Assembly: GCF_900100335.1 (NCBI RefSeq)
Contig: NZ_FNFE01000002.1
Span: forward strand, 682,001 to 746,000
Reading direction: 5' to 3'
DNA length: 64,000 bases
Source: Natronorubrum texcoconense
GTDB taxonomy: Archaea > Halobacteriota > Halobacteria > Halobacteriales > Natrialbaceae
The notes beneath the pieces were generated by a model. That model searched no databases. It saw only the letters and a program-made list of their open reading frames with translations, and was not told where the DNA came from. The position numbers and the translations under genes are program-made. Shown piece after piece: positions 17,545 to 48,881 of the stretch. The number at the start of each line of letters is the position of its first letter. Within the stretch, counting starts at the first letter, position 1.

Positions 17545-18144
17545 ATGCTGGTCACGCTCGAGGGATTGGACGGCAGCGGCAAAACGACGGTCTGGGAGGC
17601 CCTCCGGGAGTCCTACCCCGAGGCGACGTTCACCCGCGAACCGACGAACGACTCCTGGTACGGCGACGCCGTCTACCGATCGATCGGGGACGACGACGCC
17701 GACTCGCTCGCGGAACTGTTTCTCTACACCGCCGACCACGCCGACCACCTCTCGCGCGTGATCGAACCGGCGCTCGAGCGCGGCGACCTCGTCGTCTCCG
17801 ATCGCTACTCGGACTCCCGCTACGCGTACCAGGGGGCGACCCTCGAGTCGTACGACCGCCTCGAGGCCGACCCCCTCGAGTACGTCGTCGACGTCCACGA
17901 GCCGTTCACCATCGACCCCGACCTGACGATCTACCTCGATCTCGACCCAGAGACGGCCGCGGAGCGCGCGGGCGCGACGAACAAGTTCGAACATGCGGAC
18001 TACCTCGAGTCAGTGCGCGCGAACTACAAACGGTTACTCGAGCGTGATCCGGACCGGTTCGTTCGGGTGGATGCAACGCAGGAGCCGGAACGAGTGCTCG
18101 AGGCGGTCGAGGACGTGCTGGCCGATGTCGTTGCTGGCGAATAA
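17545..18144 (+). CDS. tmk: dTMP kinase (thymidylate kinase)
   Basis: A 199-residue P-loop kinase with GLDGSGKTT (residues 7-15), TREPTN and the DR(Y/F)-type [13 protein letters not shown] motif. These identify thymidylate kinase, which makes dTDP from dTMP and ATP in the cytoplasm. [13 protein letters not shown] forms the lid-side strand. The start at ATG 17545 lies about 30 bp after a TTACTAAG TATA-like box, typical for a leaderless or short-leader transcript. Length is normal for the family. Confidence 0.92.
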
Positions 18145-18199
18145 CGGAACTGTTCAGCATAGAGAACGGGTTTGCTATCGGCCGATTAGTACAGGAAAC

Positions 18200-18415
18200 T
18201 CACTGACCGCAAGTGTAGAGATATTGTGAGAGCAGAAACACAAACGCGGTAGAAAAGAAGATTCCCAGTATTTCAATTGCTAACTCACCGATAGTCCAGT
18301 ACTGATACGAGAGAACAACAAATCCAGCGACTAGAGCCGCTGTGAACCCGTTTCTGTAGCTTTTCGCTTTATTAGCATCTAAATCAGAATCTAGAACGGT
18401 TTCAGCAATCCCCAT
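18200..18415 (-). CDS. Low-GC two-TM membrane protein, 71 aa
   Basis: A short AT-rich frame with two hydrophobic stretches, about residues 25-43 (FTAALVAGFVVLSYQYW) and 48-66 (IEILGIFFSTAFVFLLSQYL). ATG 18415 is used (MGIAETVLDSD); a TTG seven codons upstream is also in frame. Codon use (AAA, AAT, ATT, TTA) is unlike the neighbours, as in the small membrane protein at 10.6 kb. No family recognised. It lies next to a long non-coding hairpin region. Confidence 0.5.
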   Translation of the reverse strand: MGIAETVLDSDLDANKAKSYRNGFTAALVAGFVVLSYQYWTIGELAIEILGIFFSTAFVFLLSQYLYTCGQ

Positions 18416-18557
18416 CGGAGTATCTATGAATTCCAACCACTTTGTTAAAAAGTTTCTGACGCTCAGGTCGCAGTTGTAGTGAAGTCCCCTTCGATCTCTG
18501 AATGGATTCTATGGCCGGAAGCGCGACGCGAGCACCGCGAGAGGCGCGCGACCCAAT

Positions 18558-18631
18558 GGAAGATGCACAGCATCTTCCAAGCATCGCGGAAGGAAACCTT
18601 CCGCTCAACGGGGAAGGGCAGGCTATTGCCC
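18558..18631. repeat. Array of three tandem short-loop hairpins
   Basis: Stem GGAAGATGC with loop ACA and exact return arm (18558-18578). Then stem GCGGAAGG with loop AAA (18586-18604). Then GGGCA with a six-base loop and TGCCC (18616-18631). Two of the stems are perfect with three-base loops, the same design as the arrays at 35.8 and 48.7 kb. Confidence 0.7.
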
Positions 18632-18782
18632 AGAAAATCACCACGAGCGACCGTAGGGAGCGAGCGGGCCGACGACTGACCTGAAACGGAGTGAAGGGGA
18701 AGGAGGAGTGTCTTCGTGAGCGGAGCGAACGAAGGCTCGGAAGTCGCAGCCCGCGAACGAAGTGAGCAGGAACGTCTTCCGT

Positions 18783-18844
18783 TGCTTTTAATCGAATTTT
18801 TGCCGAGGGCGCGGCTCCGCCGCGCCCGCAGAGCAAAACTTCGT
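18783..18844 (-). terminator. 62-bp terminator-like repeat, copy 1 (loop TCC on + strand)
   Basis: Directly behind the stop of the RAM-domain gene. A perfect 9-bp GC stem, GGGCGCGGC / GCCGCGCCC (18807-18827), has a three-base loop and is flanked by A/T-rich runs (TTTTGC before, CAAAAATTCGATTAAAAGC after, minus strand). The copy at 20594-20655 is identical outside the loop. Confidence 0.65.
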
Positions 18845-18846
18845 TC

Positions 18847-19077
18847 TTAGTCCATCGCGATGTACGTCTGTGTGTCCTCGATGCCGTCGATACCCTGTAT
18901 CTGGGTTGCGGCGATCTCCTTGACCGCCGCGGGCGTCTCGACGCTGGCTTTCGCGATGATGTCGACGTCGCCGGCGACGATGTGAGCCGACTGGACGCCG
19001 TCGATCGATTCGATGCTGTCTCGGAGCCGATCCGCCTCGCCGGTGTTCGCCTTGACCATGATGAATGCTGTAACCAT
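18847..19077 (-). CDS. Stand-alone Lrp/AsnC ligand-binding (RAM) domain protein
   Basis: This 76-residue protein is a single RAM/ACT-like Lrp ligand-binding domain without a helix-turn-helix. Opening MVTAFIMVKANTGEAD, central AHIVAGDVDIIAK and end DTQTYIAMD are typical. Such domains bind small metabolites (often amino acids) and form oligomers. Its ATG overlaps the stop of the TrkA-type gene (ATGA, 19077-19079), so the two are translationally coupled, with the RAM protein second. A close paralog starts divergently at 19918. Together they suggest a ligand-sensing partner for the TrkA protein. Confidence 0.85.
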   Translation of the reverse strand: MVTAFIMVKANTGEADRLRDSIESIDGVQSAHIVAGDVDIIAKASVETPAAVKEIAATQIQGIDGIEDTQTYIAMD

Positions 19078-19796
19078 CAGTTGACACCTCCAGTACCCGA
19101 CGTCGCGTCCGAACCCGTGTTCGCGGCCGCCTGCGCTTCCGACTCGCCGACGAGCAGTTGGCGAACCTCGCTCAACACGCCGTAATCCGCGAGCACGACG
19201 AGCCGGTCACCGTCCTCGAGCGAAAGATCCTCGTCCGGTAGCCCGAGGTCCTGGTCGCGCTTGCCGAAGGCGAGCACGGTCGCGTTGGCGGGCAGTTGCA
19301 GTTCGCTGATCGTGTAGCCGTTGACTGGGGCCCCGTTCGTGATCGTGAGTTCGACGACCTGCAGGTGCGGCGCGATGTCCGCGATGGCGCGGATGGTGCC
19401 GCCCAGCAGGGCGTTTTTCGCGCCGATGGCGCCGAGCCGTTCGGGGTAGATCACCTCGTCGACCTCGTCGGCGTACTTGCGGTAGATCCCCTCGCGGTAG
19501 GCCTCGTCGATGCGCATGATCGTCCGACAGCCGTAGTGGTTGGCGATCATACACGCCGTAAAGTTGACGTTCAGGTCGCCGGTCAGCGCACCCAGCGCGT
19601 CGGCGTCGGCGATGCCGGCCTCCTCGAGGACGTCCTCCCGAGAGCCGTCACCCTCGACGACGGTGAACTCCTGGTTGCGGGCCCGACGAATCATCGCCTC
19701 GTCTCGTTCGATTACCGACACCTCGTGGCCCTCTTCTCGAAGAACGCGCGCCGTGCGCAGGCCAACTCGTCCTGCCCCGATGATCACGAACCGCAT
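19077..19796 (-). CDS. trkA: TrkA-type potassium uptake regulator
   Basis: The 239-residue cytoplasmic protein starts with a TrkA-N Rossmann domain (VIIGAGRVG, residues 4-12, with ERD after strand 2). It ends with a TrkA-C domain (VVELTITNGAPVNGYTISEL ... LEDGDRLVVLADY). It binds NAD(H) or nucleotides and gates Trk/Ktr potassium channels. No membrane subunit (TrkH) is adjacent. ATG 19796 (MRFVIIG) is the family start. It overlaps the downstream RAM gene by four bases. The C-terminal 25 residues are low-complexity Ala/Ser/Thr/Gly. Confidence 0.87.
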   Translation of the reverse strand: MRFVIIGAGRVGLRTARVLREEGHEVSVIERDEAMIRRARNQEFTVVEGDGSREDVLEEAGIADADALGALTGDLNVNFTACMIANHYGCRTIMRIDEAYREGIYRKYADEVDEVIYPERLGAIGAKNALLGGTIRAIADIAPHLQVVELTITNGAPVNGYTISELQLPANATVLAFGKRDQDLGLPDEDLSLEDGDRLVVLADYGVLSEVRQLLVGESEAQAAANTGSDATSGTGGVN

Positions 19797-19917
19797 GCAC
19801 TGGGGTACGCTTCCCCCCGGCAATAAGCTTGCGCCGATATACCATGCCAACCAGTCGAACAGTGTCGAAAATCGGGCAAAGGTTTTAGTCATGCGAAGAT
19901 GTACCACACCGTCGAGA

Positions 19918-20148
19918 ATGGTTCACGCGTTTATTATGATCAAGACGGCCGCCGGGAAGTCCGAGGGGCTTCTCGAGTCGATCCGGGACGTCGAGTCGGT
20001 CTCCGACGCCCACATCGTCGCGGGCACGTACGACATTATCGCGGAGATCGACGCACCCGAGGTGTACAACGTCCTTCAGGCCGTCTCCTCGGGCGTACAG
20101 GGGCTCGAGGGCGTGACGGATACGAAGACGTACATCGCGATGGACTAG
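19918..20148 (+). CDS. Stand-alone Lrp/AsnC ligand-binding (RAM) domain protein (paralog)
   Basis: A 76-residue RAM-only protein, MVHAFIMIKTAAGKSEGLLE ... HIVAGTYDIIAEID ... DTKTYIAMD, same length as the protein at 18847-19077 and clearly paralogous. It has no DNA-binding domain. It is divergent from trkA, with 121 bp between the starts, so one intergenic region may drive both. Its 3' end is followed by a GC hairpin and a repeat shared with the other two genes here. Heteromer formation with its paralog is an inference. Confidence 0.85.
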   Translation: MVHAFIMIKTAAGKSEGLLESIRDVESVSDAHIVAGTYDIIAEIDAPEVYNVLQAVSSGVQGLEGVTDTKTYIAMD

Positions 20149-20173
20149 AGACCAGCTTTTACGCTGCGGTCTG

Positions 20174-20209
20174 CCGCGCTGACGGCAGCAGAGCTGCCGC
20201 ACAGCGCGG
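20174..20209 (+). terminator. Interrupted GC hairpin behind the RAM gene
   Basis: An outer stem CCGCGCTG / CAGCGCGG encloses an inner stem CGGCAGC / GCTGCCG with a three-base AGA loop. It is followed by CCTCGGTAAAACC and ATCAAAAGC. It matches the layout of the 62-bp terminator element (GC stem, then CTCGGYAAAA and AAAAGC) although the stem sequence differs. Confidence 0.55.
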
Positions 20210-20512
20210 TGTCCCTCGGTAAAACCTGGATCAAAAGCACTCCTCCTTCCGTTCTCTCACTCCGTTCCGTCGTTCGCACACATCAGTCGTCGGCCCGCTC
20301 GCTCCCTACGGTCGCTCGCGGTCGATGAACGGGCGAGTGCCTGCCCTCCCCCGGGTCCTACGACGCTCGCGGTGCTCGCGTCGCACTCCCGGCCATCTGA
20401 ACGACTTGCAATCCGATCCCAGCAGAGGGCAAGCGGACGACGACCGATGAATCGTTCCACGAATGTTGCATCGGCGAGCGAGCGGTTTGAAAAACCCGAG
20501 CGTTGCCGTTCA

Positions 20513-20544
20513 CCGAGCGAAACGCGTGAGCGCGTTTCGCTCGG
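20513..20544. repeat. Perfect 14-bp stem, 4-base loop hairpin
   Basis: CCGAGCGAAACGCG, loop TGAG, then the exact reverse complement CGCGTTTCGCTCGG. It is the longest perfect stem I found in the window and lies between the two head-to-head trailer repeats. Confidence 0.7.
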
Positions 20545-20593
20545 GCCGACGACTGACTCGGAGCGAGTGAAACGAGCGCAGAGGAAGGAAGAG

Positions 20594-20655
20594 TGCTTTT
20601 AATCGAATTTTTGCCGAGGGCGCGGCGGAGCCGCGCCCGCAGAGCAAAACTTCGT
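20594..20655 (-). terminator. 62-bp terminator-like repeat, copy 2 (loop GGA on + strand)
   Basis: Identical in flanks and stem to 18783-18844, but the loop triplet between GGGCGCGGC and GCCGCGCCC is GGA instead of TCC (20618-20638). Like copy 1 it begins within two bases of the stop codon of the minus-strand gene it follows. Confidence 0.7.
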
Positions 20656-20656
20656 A

Positions 20657-21187
20657 CTACATCGGCATGCCGCCACTCTCTCCTTCGCTGGCCTGCTGGC
20701 CGCGGCTCTGGGCGTTCTCGAGCAGCGTCGCCGCCGCCCCCTGATACTCGTAGCCGGGGATGATCCCCTGCGCGTAGGTGCCCTCGACGTACTCGATGAG
20801 GGCCTTGGCGTCGTCGACGCCCTCGCCGGCGTCCCAGGCGACGTACTCGAGGGACACGGTGACGTCGGTCGCGTCGCGCTCGACGACCGGTTCGTCGTGC
20901 GTGCTCGTGTGGGCGACGGTGAAGACGTCCTCGAGGCGGCGCTCGAGCGTCTCGAGCCAGCCGTCTTCGACGACGGGAGCGACGGCTTCGCCCGCGACGG
21001 CGGCGTCGAGCGTCGGAAGCGTGACGGTGACGCGAAACTCTCCATCTCGCTTTCCCTCTGCATCGGTGGCAGTGACGGTCGCCTCGAAGACCGTCGTCGT
21101 GAGTTCGTAGCTGCCGTCGTCGGTAGTCGGTTCGAACGCGTCGTGCGACTCGAGTTCGCGGGCGACGGGCTCCGGAAGGGGGGTCAT
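20657..21187 (-). CDS. Haloarchaeal DUF5813-like protein
   Basis: A 176-residue acidic soluble protein, mostly beta-strand in the N-terminal two thirds (FRVTVTLPTLDA, VTVSLEYVAWD) with a helical C-terminal part (DDAKALIEYVEGTYAQGIIPGYEY). It ends in a Gln/Gly/Ser/Met tail. I match it from memory to DUF5813, whose function is unknown. ATG 21187 (MTPLPEPVARELESHDAF) is preferred to one seven codons upstream. It is followed by the 62-bp terminator-like repeat. Confidence 0.7.
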   Translation of the reverse strand: MTPLPEPVARELESHDAFEPTTDDGSYELTTTVFEATVTATDAEGKRDGEFRVTVTLPTLDAAVAGEAVAPVVEDGWLETLERRLEDVFTVAHTSTHDEPVVERDATDVTVSLEYVAWDAGEGVDDAKALIEYVEGTYAQGIIPGYEYQGAAATLLENAQSRGQQASEGESGGMPM

Positions 21188-21557
21188 TACCGAACACACG
21201 GGCGTCACGAAAAAGGGTGTTACGTTCCGACCCCAGATCGGACAACCGTTTCATCCTATTACACAGTTAAAACCGAAAAAACGCCCGACTGCAGCGGGAT
21301 CGTTTCACCGTCGTAGCCGACTGTTTCTGCGCAAAATGGGCTACATAACTACAACGGATATTGCCGTTTTTTGTCGGCATGAGTCTCGATAGACATGCTG
21401 CCGAACGACGCCGGTTCGCCCGCCTCCTCGGTATCGATGGCGAACTCGGGAGTGGGCTGCCGATCGGCACCCACTCGAGTGGAACCGCCGAGGGGGAACG
21501 CAACTGCGACCATCGCCGCGAGGCAGAACAGACCGGACGGAGCGACCGGCCCGAGCG
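21188..21557. other. Intergenic region without a supported gene
   Basis: About 370 bp between two minus-strand genes. Short frames exist on both strands but have no family character. The stretch 21250-21400 is AT-richer and should contain the promoter of the DUF5813 gene. I see no repeat or clear hairpin. Confidence 0.4.
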
Positions 21558-35594: not shown

Positions 35595-35979
35595 CCGCAC
35601 TCGCCGGAACCCACCGTCTCCGCCCAACTGACGGAGTTAGCCGGTCTCAACCGTACCCTGCTTCCGACGCGTTTCGCCGACTCGCCGATCACCGCTTTTT
35701 GCCAGCGATCGTCGTTCGAACGAGTGACTGTCCCGAAATTACCACCGCGAGGGAACCCGCAGCTCCGGTTTACCTAAATCGAGGCGCTAAAGCCCCTTCC
35801 TCAGCGAGCGCCGAAGGCGCGAGCAGGGAGGGGATACAGCGTCCCCAGAAATCTCCGATTTCTGGTGTGCAAACGAGGCGCAAAGCGTCTCGTTAACGCT
35901 GAACAAGTTTCTTAGACTGTTCTACAGCAGGCCCACGTTATCGATATCATTATGAGTATCTACTTCGTAGATACACCCA
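35595..35979. other. Left flank of the TnpB element, hairpin-rich, no gene
   Basis: Non-coding. From about 35700 it moves into the element's left part: a right-end-like hairpin (35793-35833) and two triloop hairpins (35845-35894), then AT-rich sequence with TATA-like patches before the DUF2080 gene. The exact left border of the element is not visible. Confidence 0.5.
35793..35894. repeat. Three tandem hairpins at the left side of the TnpB element
   Basis: Hairpin 1: CCCCTTCCT pairs with AGGGAGGGG (one G-U), with inner GCGCC-GAA-GGCGC (35793-35833). Hairpin 2: CCAGAAATC-TCC-GATTTCTGG (35845-35865), perfect. Hairpin 3: AACGAGGCGC-AAA-GCGTCTCGTT (35872-35894), one G-U. Hairpin 1 closely copies the right-end hairpin at 37366-37410. 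Confidence 0.65.
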
Positions 35980-36129
35980 ATGGATCGGTACGAGGTCGAA
36001 GGACACGAAGTCCTCGAAGCCAAAGTCAAACCGACCGGCAACGGTGCGCACATATACGTCCCGAAAGCGTGGACCGGCGCAACCGTCAAAGTCGTCCGTG
36101 TCACCGATCCGTCCGACGAAGACGAGTAG
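35980..36129 (+). CDS. DUF2080 transposon-associated protein, 49 aa
   Basis: The 49 residues MDRYEVEGHEVLEAKVKPTG ... AHIYVPKAWTGATVKVVRV match the DUF2080 family that travels with IS1341-type elements in haloarchaea. The fold looks like an AbrB/MazE-type beta-swapped DNA-binding domain (VKPTGNGAHIYVPKAW). It ends three bases before the tnpB ATG, so the two are almost certainly co-transcribed. It could be a repressor of the element. The start is ATG 35980, just behind a TAGATACACCC stretch. Confidence 0.85.
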   Translation: MDRYEVEGHEVLEAKVKPTGNGAHIYVPKAWTGATVKVVRVTDPSDEDE

Positions 36130-36132
36130 ACA

Positions 36133-37344
36133 ATGCGCTACAACTACAGGTATCGGCTCAACCCGACCGACGAACTCCACGACCGCTTAGCATGGACTGT
36201 CGATACCTGCCGACAGGTCTACAACCACTTCCTGCACCGGCTCAACCGGGAGGACGACACGTCAGCCTACTCCGAACAGTCGGTCCTTCCCGACCTGAAG
36301 CGCGAGTGGACTGAACTCAAGCAGGTCCACTCGAAAGTGTTGCAGAAGGTCGTACAACGGCTGTACGACAACCTCTCGACACTGAGGGGCCGGAAGGACA
36401 ACGGCTACCGCGTCGGAGAACTCAAGTGGAAGGCCCCGCAGGAATATCGCTCGATCAAGTACAGCCAAACCGGCTTCGAACTCAAAAACACGAGTGGTCG
36501 CGCTGTACTTTCTCTTTCCAAAATCGGTGATATTCCGCTGGTCTACCACCGCAACGTTCCCGACGACGCCACGATCAAAGAGGTCGTCGTCAAGCAGGAA
36601 CCAACCGGCGAGTGGTTCACTGTCCTCGGGATCGAAATGGATCGAAAGTCGCCAGAGAAACCGGAGCATCCGAAGGACGTTGTCGGCATCGACGTGGGTA
36701 TCCTGAAATACGCCCACGACACCGACGGGCTCGCCGTCGAACGCCCCGATCTGTCCGACGAACGCGGGCGGCTGGAACGCGAGCAACGGGAACTCTCTCG
36801 GAAAGAGCACGGCTCGGCGAACTACCGCAAGCAACAGCGAGTGGTCGCCAAACGTCACGCCGACCTGATGCGAAAGCGTCGGGACTTCTTGCACAAGCTT
36901 TCGAACCACTACGCTCGGACGTACGATCTCGTGGCGGTCGAAGATCTCGACGCCAAAGGATTGATCGAACTGCCATCGAACAGCCGAAACCGTGCCGGAG
37001 CGGCGTGGGGAACGTTCCTCCAGATGCTCGAGTACAAGTGCGAACGCGAAGGCACGCACTTCGTCGCCGTCGACCCGGCAGGGACGACCAAAGAGTGTGC
37101 GGCCTGTGGCGTCGAGTCGGACAAGCCGCTGTGGGTCCGCGAACACTCGTGTCCGTCGTGCGGCTTCACGGCAGACAGAGACTGGAACGCGGCCTACAAC
37201 ATCTTGGTACGCGGTCTGAATCAAGTAGGGACGGGCAGTCCCAAATCAACGCCTGCGGAGACTGCGCTCCCTACGGGAACCGATTCAGTTCCTGCAAAGC
37301 GCGTTTGTCGAGGGAACCTCGACAGGCTGTCAGACGTAGTCTGA
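36133..37344 (+). CDS. tnpB: RNA-guided nuclease TnpB (OrfB)
   Basis: The 403-residue protein has an intact RuvC active site: D187 in VVGIDVGI, E270 in LVAVEDLD, and D350 in ADRDWNAAYN. The C4 zinc finger is C322-x2-C325 and C340-x2-C343. TnpB uses an omega RNA made from the element's right end to cut DNA next to a short adjacent motif and so retain the element. N-terminal REC/wedge features (TVDTCRQVYNHFLHRLN) are also present. All hallmarks are kept, so it is probably active. It follows DUF2080 by three bases. Confidence 0.92.
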   Translation: MRYNYRYRLNPTDELHDRLAWTVDTCRQVYNHFLHRLNREDDTSAYSEQSVLPDLKREWTELKQVHSKVLQKVVQRLYDNLSTLRGRKDNGYRVGELKWKAPQEYRSIKYSQTGFELKNTSGRAVLSLSKIGDIPLVYHRNVPDDATIKEVVVKQEPTGEWFTVLGIEMDRKSPEKPEHPKDVVGIDVGILKYAHDTDGLAVERPDLSDERGRLEREQRELSRKEHGSANYRKQQRVVAKRHADLMRKRRDFLHKLSNHYARTYDLVAVEDLDAKGLIELPSNSRNRAGAAWGTFLQMLEYKCEREGTHFVAVDPAGTTKECAACGVESDKPLWVREHSCPSCGFTADRDWNAAYNILVRGLNQVGTGSPKSTPAETALPTGTDSVPAKRVCRGNLDRLSDVV

Positions 37345-37424
37345 CAACGTCGTGGAAACAGGAAGCCCTATCCTCAAGGAGCGAACGGCGTCAGCCGTGA
37401 GCGAGTAGGGTGGGGAGGAAGTCA
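37345..37424 (+). ncRNA. Putative omega RNA 3' part / element right end
   Basis: Behind the tnpB stop lies CCCTA (37366-37370) pairing with TAGGG (37406-37410), with inner stem ACGGC-GTCA-GCCGT (37385-37398). GGGGAGGAAGTCAC follows. This is the usual place and shape of the TnpB omega RNA scaffold; the guide would be the bases directly after the end (from about 37424). The 5' limit probably lies inside tnpB. Confidence 0.6.
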
Positions 37425-48535: not shown

Positions 48536-48881
48536 CTACCGCTACCGACCAGAATCGATCGGACCACGTGCGGTGGCGCGCACTGGGCCGGAGTTCGCTC
48601 TTCAGAGGGAACTCCGGCTCGACTTTACGCGAGGTCGTCGCGAGTGTCACGAGCGACTGCGTGGAAGACGCGAAGCGTCTTCCTCTGGATGAGCGAGCGA
48701 CTGAAAGGAGCGAACGTTAGCGCGGGACCGAAGGTCCCGCGAACCATGCAAACGGGTGCTCCGCACCCGTGAGCAGAAATCGGCTGGGGAGGACGTGGAA
48801 ACCCTAGCCGCCATCGTCAGCAGCGTACTCGTTTTCGCTTCCAGTGATTCTCACTCTCCCCCGCTGAAATTCGTCAGGGAA
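48536..48881. other. Hairpin-array intergenic region, no gene
   Basis: About 345 bp between convergent genes. It contains four perfect hairpins in a row (48587-48770) and a GCTGGGGAGGACGTGGAAAC stretch that resembles the tail of TnpB elements. No frame with family character. Confidence 0.55.
48587..48770. repeat. Array of four perfect hairpins
   Basis: (1) GCCGGAGTTC with a 12-base loop and exact return arm (48587-48618). (2) GGAAGACGC-GAA-GCGTCTTCC (48663-48683). (3) CGCGGGACC-GAA-GGTCCCGCG (48721-48741). (4) ACGGGTGC-TCC-GCACCCGT (48752-48770). Three of the four have three-base loops, as at 18.56 and 35.8 kb. TGCAAACG before hairpin 4 also precedes a hairpin in the TnpB left end. Confidence 0.75.

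Follow-up and report, generated by a model that had tools for sequence, protein, structure and literature searches.

What process could leave two stretches of DNA identical over almost their whole length and different only in the three bases at a hairpin tip, where one triplet is the reverse complement of the other? The question is raised by two 62-mers, at positions 18783-18844 and 20594-20655 of the 64,000-nucleotide stretch of the Natronorubrum texcoconense genome that we analyzed (the window). An earlier note on this DNA had described them as matching at every base outside the loop, and a base-by-base check bears this out. Of the 62 positions, 59 agree between the two, and the sole difference is the triplet TCC (18816-18818) in one and GGA (20627-20629) in the other, exact reverse complements set between 9-bp arms. 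The borders of the match are exact, extending by 0 bases at one end and 0 at the other. Both 62-mers lie directly 3' of minus-strand stop codons, in the same orientation (TAA at 18849-18847 and TAG at 20659-20657). The sequence GCTTTTAATCGAATTTTTGC occurs twice at up to 3 mismatches and in none of 100 shuffles, so the repeat is not due to chance.

There are indeed two similar elements here, but the 62 bp do not make up a bounded unit; they are what the two copies have in common within a longer, modular 3'-end region. Nor is the pair complete, since the plus strand holds a third copy between them, a diverged one (20151-20238). The first element, copy A (18784-18844, minus strand; covariance model 89.2 bits, E 4e-18; also read directly), follows a 76-amino-acid gene with an Lrp/AsnC ligand-binding domain (18847-19077, minus strand; PF01037, E 3.4e-13), and its loop reads GGA in gene sense. 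Its inner palindrome, GGGCGCGGC-TCC-GCCGCGCCC (18807-18827), carries the inverted triloop at 18816-18818. Its outer stem (18793-18843) pairs CGAATTTTTGC (18793-18803) with GCAAAACTTCG (18833-18843) with one mismatch, as indicated by covariation and by the DNA fold (z of -4.6 or lower). Copy B (20595-20655, minus strand; 89.3 bits, E 3.9e-18) follows a DUF5813 gene (20657-21208, minus strand; E 1.9e-58) and has the gene-sense loop TCC. It consists of the inner palindrome GGGCGCGGC-GGA-GCCGCGCCC (20618-20638), with the inverted triloop at 20627-20629, and, on fold evidence, an outer stem (20604-20654) of 20604-20614 with 20644-20654. The E values of about 4e-18 for copies A and B are those of sequences that are themselves among the model's 40. 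Copy C, from outside the model set, scores 46.6 bits (E 2.7e-8); it has a diverged outer stem and a long inner hairpin with the loop AGA, and it stands behind the stop codon of a second 76-amino-acid gene with an Lrp/AsnC ligand-binding domain (19918-20148, plus strand; E 2e-9). Domain matches identify two further genes nearby, a TrkA-N/TrkA-C gene (19077-19796, minus strand) and a thymidylate kinase gene that is convergent towards copy A (17545-18144, plus strand). Behind copy A, at 18711-18783 on the minus strand and after AAAAGC, an extra module (AACGGAAGACGTTCCTGCTC...CTTCCGAGCCTTCG...) interrupts the usual AAAAGC-ACTCCTCC junction, and similar GGAAGACG modules are found behind four other copies (L004, L187, L232, and L233).

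Beyond the window, we found the family with a 76-base query and then by a motif search (TCGGCAAAANTTNGATNAAAAGCA). The genome-wide search for copies that the earlier note had proposed returned 12 motif copies at up to 3 mismatches and about 14 by the covariance model. The element is present in 9 of the 10 genomes of the genus Natronorubrum and, at one mismatch, in 89 of 121 Natrialbaceae genomes, while a reversed control pattern had no matches. In an order-wide sample it is nearly confined to the Natrialbaceae: 3 genomes of other families have a single one-mismatch match each. The window pair represents two copies of a dispersed, palindromic 3'-end element of this family, with an inner hairpin that can be exchanged.

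The position and structure of the element are well conserved. It starts 0-6 nt after a stop codon in 110 of 151 placed copies, with a median of 3. Read in gene sense, the stop codon and this short gap are followed by the outer arm CGAA-x-TTTTGC, the motif KCTGC, the inner hairpin, TCG, the other outer arm GCAAAA-x-TTCG, GATNAAAAGC, often ACTCCTCCTTCC, and, further on, CAGTCGTCGGCCCGCTCG. Thus a run of T4-T5 lies within an imperfect outer stem, which encloses a conserved internal loop (KCTGC / TCGG) and a GC-rich inner hairpin with a triloop. Both helices covary across the 40 aligned sequences, with 97.9% of cells paired and 0 of 500 shuffles as good; 48 cells are altered on both sides of a stem and only 3 on one side, all of them G-U. 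The element strand also folds far better than shuffled sequence (z -4.6 to -5.7). No Rfam family matched up to E 1 across 18100-20800. A crude count of neighboring genes (114 convergent, 60 in the same direction) is too noisy to use.

Some copies are more elaborate. In L004/L008, L063, L070, L273, L274, and L243, three or more hairpins sit inside the same outer arms in a branched-like arrangement, with GAGAGAGC-nnn-GCTCTCTC and AAAGGCGC-nnn-GCGCCTTT preceding the usual hairpin. In the alignment (columns 6, 48, and 55 of A2), the outer-stem mismatch varies in step with a base 7 nt behind it, the usual combinations being G/A/T, C/C/G, and A/T/C, as if a third position were tied to the stem.

A fixed position behind stop codons, conserved pairing, and a T-run point to a role at transcript 3' ends, and judging from sequence, the element probably helps end or protect transcripts. 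Counting against termination, the T4-T5 run precedes the hairpin and a U-tract after the hairpin is absent. Intergenic termination sites of Haloferax volcanii have T stretches, some with hairpins upstream (PMC7237163). They resemble the element in having a T stretch and hairpins, which in Haloferax are linked to RNA 3' ends, but their sequence differs. Like REP palindromes (PMC3733652), the element is short, dispersed, and intergenic, with possible effects on termination or mRNA stability; unlike them, it is tied to stop codons, has an exchangeable inner hairpin, and has a low copy number (about 14). The tetranucleotide tag GTAG or CGTC that by definition marks one end of a REP palindrome is absent from the 40-sequence alignment. 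The PATEs, SMRs, and MITEs of Haloquadratum (PMC3119063) are likewise small haloarchaeal repeats that bear palindromes. In contrast to these, most copies of our element sit just behind the stop codons of orthologous genes, and neither a target duplication nor a terminal inverted repeat is established for it. A PATE would have the near-terminal palindromes of an IS605-type element, and what bears on this here is a repeated block of ~190 bp that holds some copies.

Which triplets are found at the tip of the inner hairpin? Of 165 distinct element triloops, 154 (93%) read [AG]NA or its complement TN[CT], compared with 76 of 266 (29%) control triloops elsewhere in long stretches (Fisher p 5e-44). 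Loops outside this class are rare (11/165), and the closing pair is C-G in 161 of the 165. This rule matches known stable DNA minihairpins (GNA and AAA). According to work cited in PMC6479982 (references 43, 44, 47, and 48 there), GNA loops with a C-G closing pair form extraordinarily stable DNA minihairpins, and a structure has been published for an AAA loop closed in the same way. It is on this cited work that the loop preference rests, as the DNA parameters of ViennaRNA assign an identical energy to all triloops. The rule may be general for intergenic palindromes, to judge from a wider, non-element set in which it holds for 9 of 10 palindromes in stretches that lack an open frame of 100 codons, a small number, and for 118 of 305 in long open frames. 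In the window, other, probably intergenic palindromes at 18557-18604, 35845-37346, and 48663-48770 have mostly loops of the same class (ACA, TCC, TTC, GTA, and GAA), which suggests that the rule is perhaps general in these genomes. The extra hairpins of the branched-like copies mostly follow it too, and inversion is found there as well (GAA/TTC in L089/L331).

The sense strand carries the purine form of the loop in 82 cases and the antisense strand in 72 (p 0.47). Loop orientation is therefore free, as expected if inversion is free and the constraint acts on the DNA of either strand. A flipping tip could also be a programmed switch, with a recombinase or HUH nuclease turning the loop round to alter gene expression or to move the element. 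Palindromic ends are substrates of IS200/IS605 transposases, palindrome-associated elements exist in halophiles (PMC3119063), and some copies lie in a repeated block that is not behind a stop codon. However, orientation is near 50:50, and inverting a triloop leaves the stem, the flanks, and the predicted fold energy unchanged and is without evident function, while the 0-6 nt spacing behind stop codons in 110 of 151 copies fits a gene-end function better than random insertion. We regard such a switch as extremely improbable. A variable tip behind stop codons also recalls integron attC sites, a reading that we set aside because we are aware of no cassette array and no attC core here.

If the loops flip, the same gene ends in related species should tell, and we grouped copies by the gene that they follow in order to compare orthologous sites. 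The earlier note had named two outcomes that would speak against flipping: a loop fixed at every locus across strains, and unrelated loops with no inversion bias. For the first, the comparison covers species, and across these the loops vary; at the copy-A site alone, other species have GGA, TCC, GAA, TTC, and AAA on the same arms. As for the second, other loops do exist, yet they form one restricted class and show an inversion bias. A loop and its exact reverse complement are both found in 12 of 27 site-and-arm groups, above the expectation from loop composition (mean 5.3 when loops are shuffled among groups in a composition-matched null; p 0.0006, which serves as a guide rather than an exact probability because the groups consist of related species). 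Among near-identical pairs, which have up to 8 differences elsewhere in 60 nt, reverse complements make up 12 of 43 (28%). The composition-matched null gives 10%; an earlier null of 5% was too low for element loops. As in the window pair, the triplet is replaced by its exact reverse complement with unchanged arms in L196/L222 (TTC/GAA) and L197/L248 (GCA/TGC), each with 0 differences outside the loop in 60 nt, in L213/L234 (GGA/TCC), with 1, and in L067/L077 (AAA/TTT), with 3. L208/L241 (GCA/TGC) is a further inverse pair with no or few other differences.

Could such pairs arise by independent substitution, with loops drifting within [AG]NA / TN[CT] under selection for stability and meeting their reverse complement by chance? 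Single-base loop changes do occur, and in so narrow a class about one random pair in ten would be reverse complements. In many pairs with the same arms, the loops are unrelated or differ at one or two bases, which indicates that loops also change by substitution or exchange. The observed frequency in close pairs and the permutation result both exceed this chance level, however, and a change from GGA to TCC would take three steps via outside-class loops, which only 11 of 165 triloops represent. In the window, where 59 bases are identical and all three changes fall in the loop, three separate substitutions are unlikely. We therefore consider substitution an improbable source of the inverse pairs.

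The main rival to inversion is the copying of a hairpin with the opposite loop. In its strict form, inner hairpins would be exchanged between elements by ectopic gene conversion only, with both orientations already present in the pool. The inner hairpin is indeed often swapped whole, with different arms in 131 orthologous pairs. The arms come from a small shared vocabulary (GGGCGCGGC, GGGTGCGCC, GTGCGGTCGC, GGGCCAGC, GGGCCGGC, and others), and three hairpins sometimes replace one. Some of the variation in loops may thus have been copied in from other elements. Polyploidy and active gene conversion are described for haloarchaea in PMC8223754. In the closest relative (G009), which is 94% identical at this locus, the copy-A site holds the long AGA hairpin that is found here at the copy-C site, and because of this case, copying of opposite-loop hairpins very probably happens too. 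Exchange as the only process nevertheless has to account for inversions at arms that are rare or unseen elsewhere in the sample, with 0 differences in 60 nt (L196/L222 and L197/L248). The arms of L196/L222, GGGTCAGC, are confined to that site within the sample, so that no sampled paralogue has to be invoked as a donor. Exchange alone also has to account for the excess over loops shuffled among groups, and some inversion would be needed anyway to stock the pool with both orientations. As the whole explanation, exchange seems unlikely to us.

Inversion of the loop in place, by template switching or by cruciform cutting, is in our view the probable explanation. Because the same gene ends in relatives show the flip in excess of chance, the hairpin tips seem to be inverted again and again by DNA copying or repair. 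Perfect inverted arms of 7-10 bp around a 3-base spacer that can form a very stable minihairpin (C-GNA-G or C-ANA-G) on one strand would make these sites prone to spacer inversion. In template switching, the nascent strand would leave its template for the complementary strand within the first arm and return within the second; alternatively, an extruded cruciform could be cut and rejoined. Either route would leave the spacer reversed and the arms intact. The earlier note had ascribed the pair to hairpin resolution or cruciform-loop flipping; the inversion itself has held up, whereas the two routes leave an identical trace and are not separated by these data. By template switching, one arm is also rewritten from its partner, and the scarcity of G-U pairs agrees with this. 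For this genome, the order of events that we infer is local copying and then inversion. Recent local copying is the most likely reason why the gene ends of copies A and B share one element; either that event or a later one would have inverted one loop of the pair.

How far the process extends depends on the palindromes compared. In two 400-kb related regions (G089 and G056), 34 matched triloop palindromes showed no inversion; this set lies nearly all in long open frames, with arms often only 7 bp, and few intergenic palindromes aligned. A second comparison over 80 kb (G003 and G006) yielded one inversion. Given this coding-dominated test, the excess is established only for the element family and its close kin. 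Plasmid records, searched as a source of near-identical strains, gave three matches and no close pairs. Assembly error is possible at single sites and unlikely as the source of a reverse-complement excess across independent assemblies.

A bolder reading can be offered tentatively, and we would sooner doubt it than rely on it. The gene-end palindromes may extrude as DNA cruciforms or hairpins in haloarchaeal cells in vivo, with C-[AG]NA-G minihairpins on one strand or the other as nuclei, and the loop may be re-inverted so often that its orientation records extrusion or template-switch events. The same events might rewrite and exchange the arms and so yield the hairpin vocabulary.

The flip process itself is already described in yeast genes and chloroplasts. 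In chloroplasts, small hairpin loops between short inverted repeats are inverted between related genomes, a phenomenon known as flip-flop. Those inversions are at single sites, whereas the loops described here belong to a conserved family of elements and obey a sequence rule. In Saccharomyces coding genes, spacer inversion by template switching has been documented phylogenetically (PMC8604942). Table 2 of that paper lists four 3-bp spacers, all of them GNA/TNC; one, tcc/gga in PIM1, is closed by C-G, as here. The yeast cases share with ours the perfect short arms (10-11 bp around the 3-bp spacers), the replacement of a 3-bp spacer by its exact reverse complement, and flips in both directions, and the yeast loops tcc/gga and ttc/gaa are also among the element loops. 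Our case differs in its occurrence in archaea, at gene 3' ends, and in a dispersed family, with arms of 8-10 bp and exchange of whole hairpins besides.

The element family appears to be undescribed. In the open-access literature that we searched, we found no archaeal case of loop inversion and no account of this family, which is weak evidence of novelty. The family supplies dozens of matched sites in closely related species, and a sequence rule that ties inversion to stable DNA minihairpins. Together, these bring within reach of measurement a process that is usually difficult to demonstrate, the formation of DNA hairpins inside living cells. The family is also a warning that clustered loop differences in terminators should be read as one event instead of three substitutions. 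For spacers of inverted repeats close to terminators, an excess of substitutions has been reported in a recent survey, which in the passages covered here does not consider inversion (PMC13155455).

Two further observations come from other genomes. In the closest relative, at L113, the first half of the element of the plus-strand AsnC-domain gene passes directly into the end of the DUF5813 gene; from this arrangement, two facing elements seem to have recombined and deleted the space between them. Finally, a near-identical repeated block of ~190 bp, from about CTACRYGTGC to about CGCCTGTACTGA, carries the element in L188, L189, L190, and L182 (G079), L062 and L069 (G008), and L056 (G002). With several copies per genome, mostly away from stop codons, this block has the look of a small mobile repeat with the element inside it.
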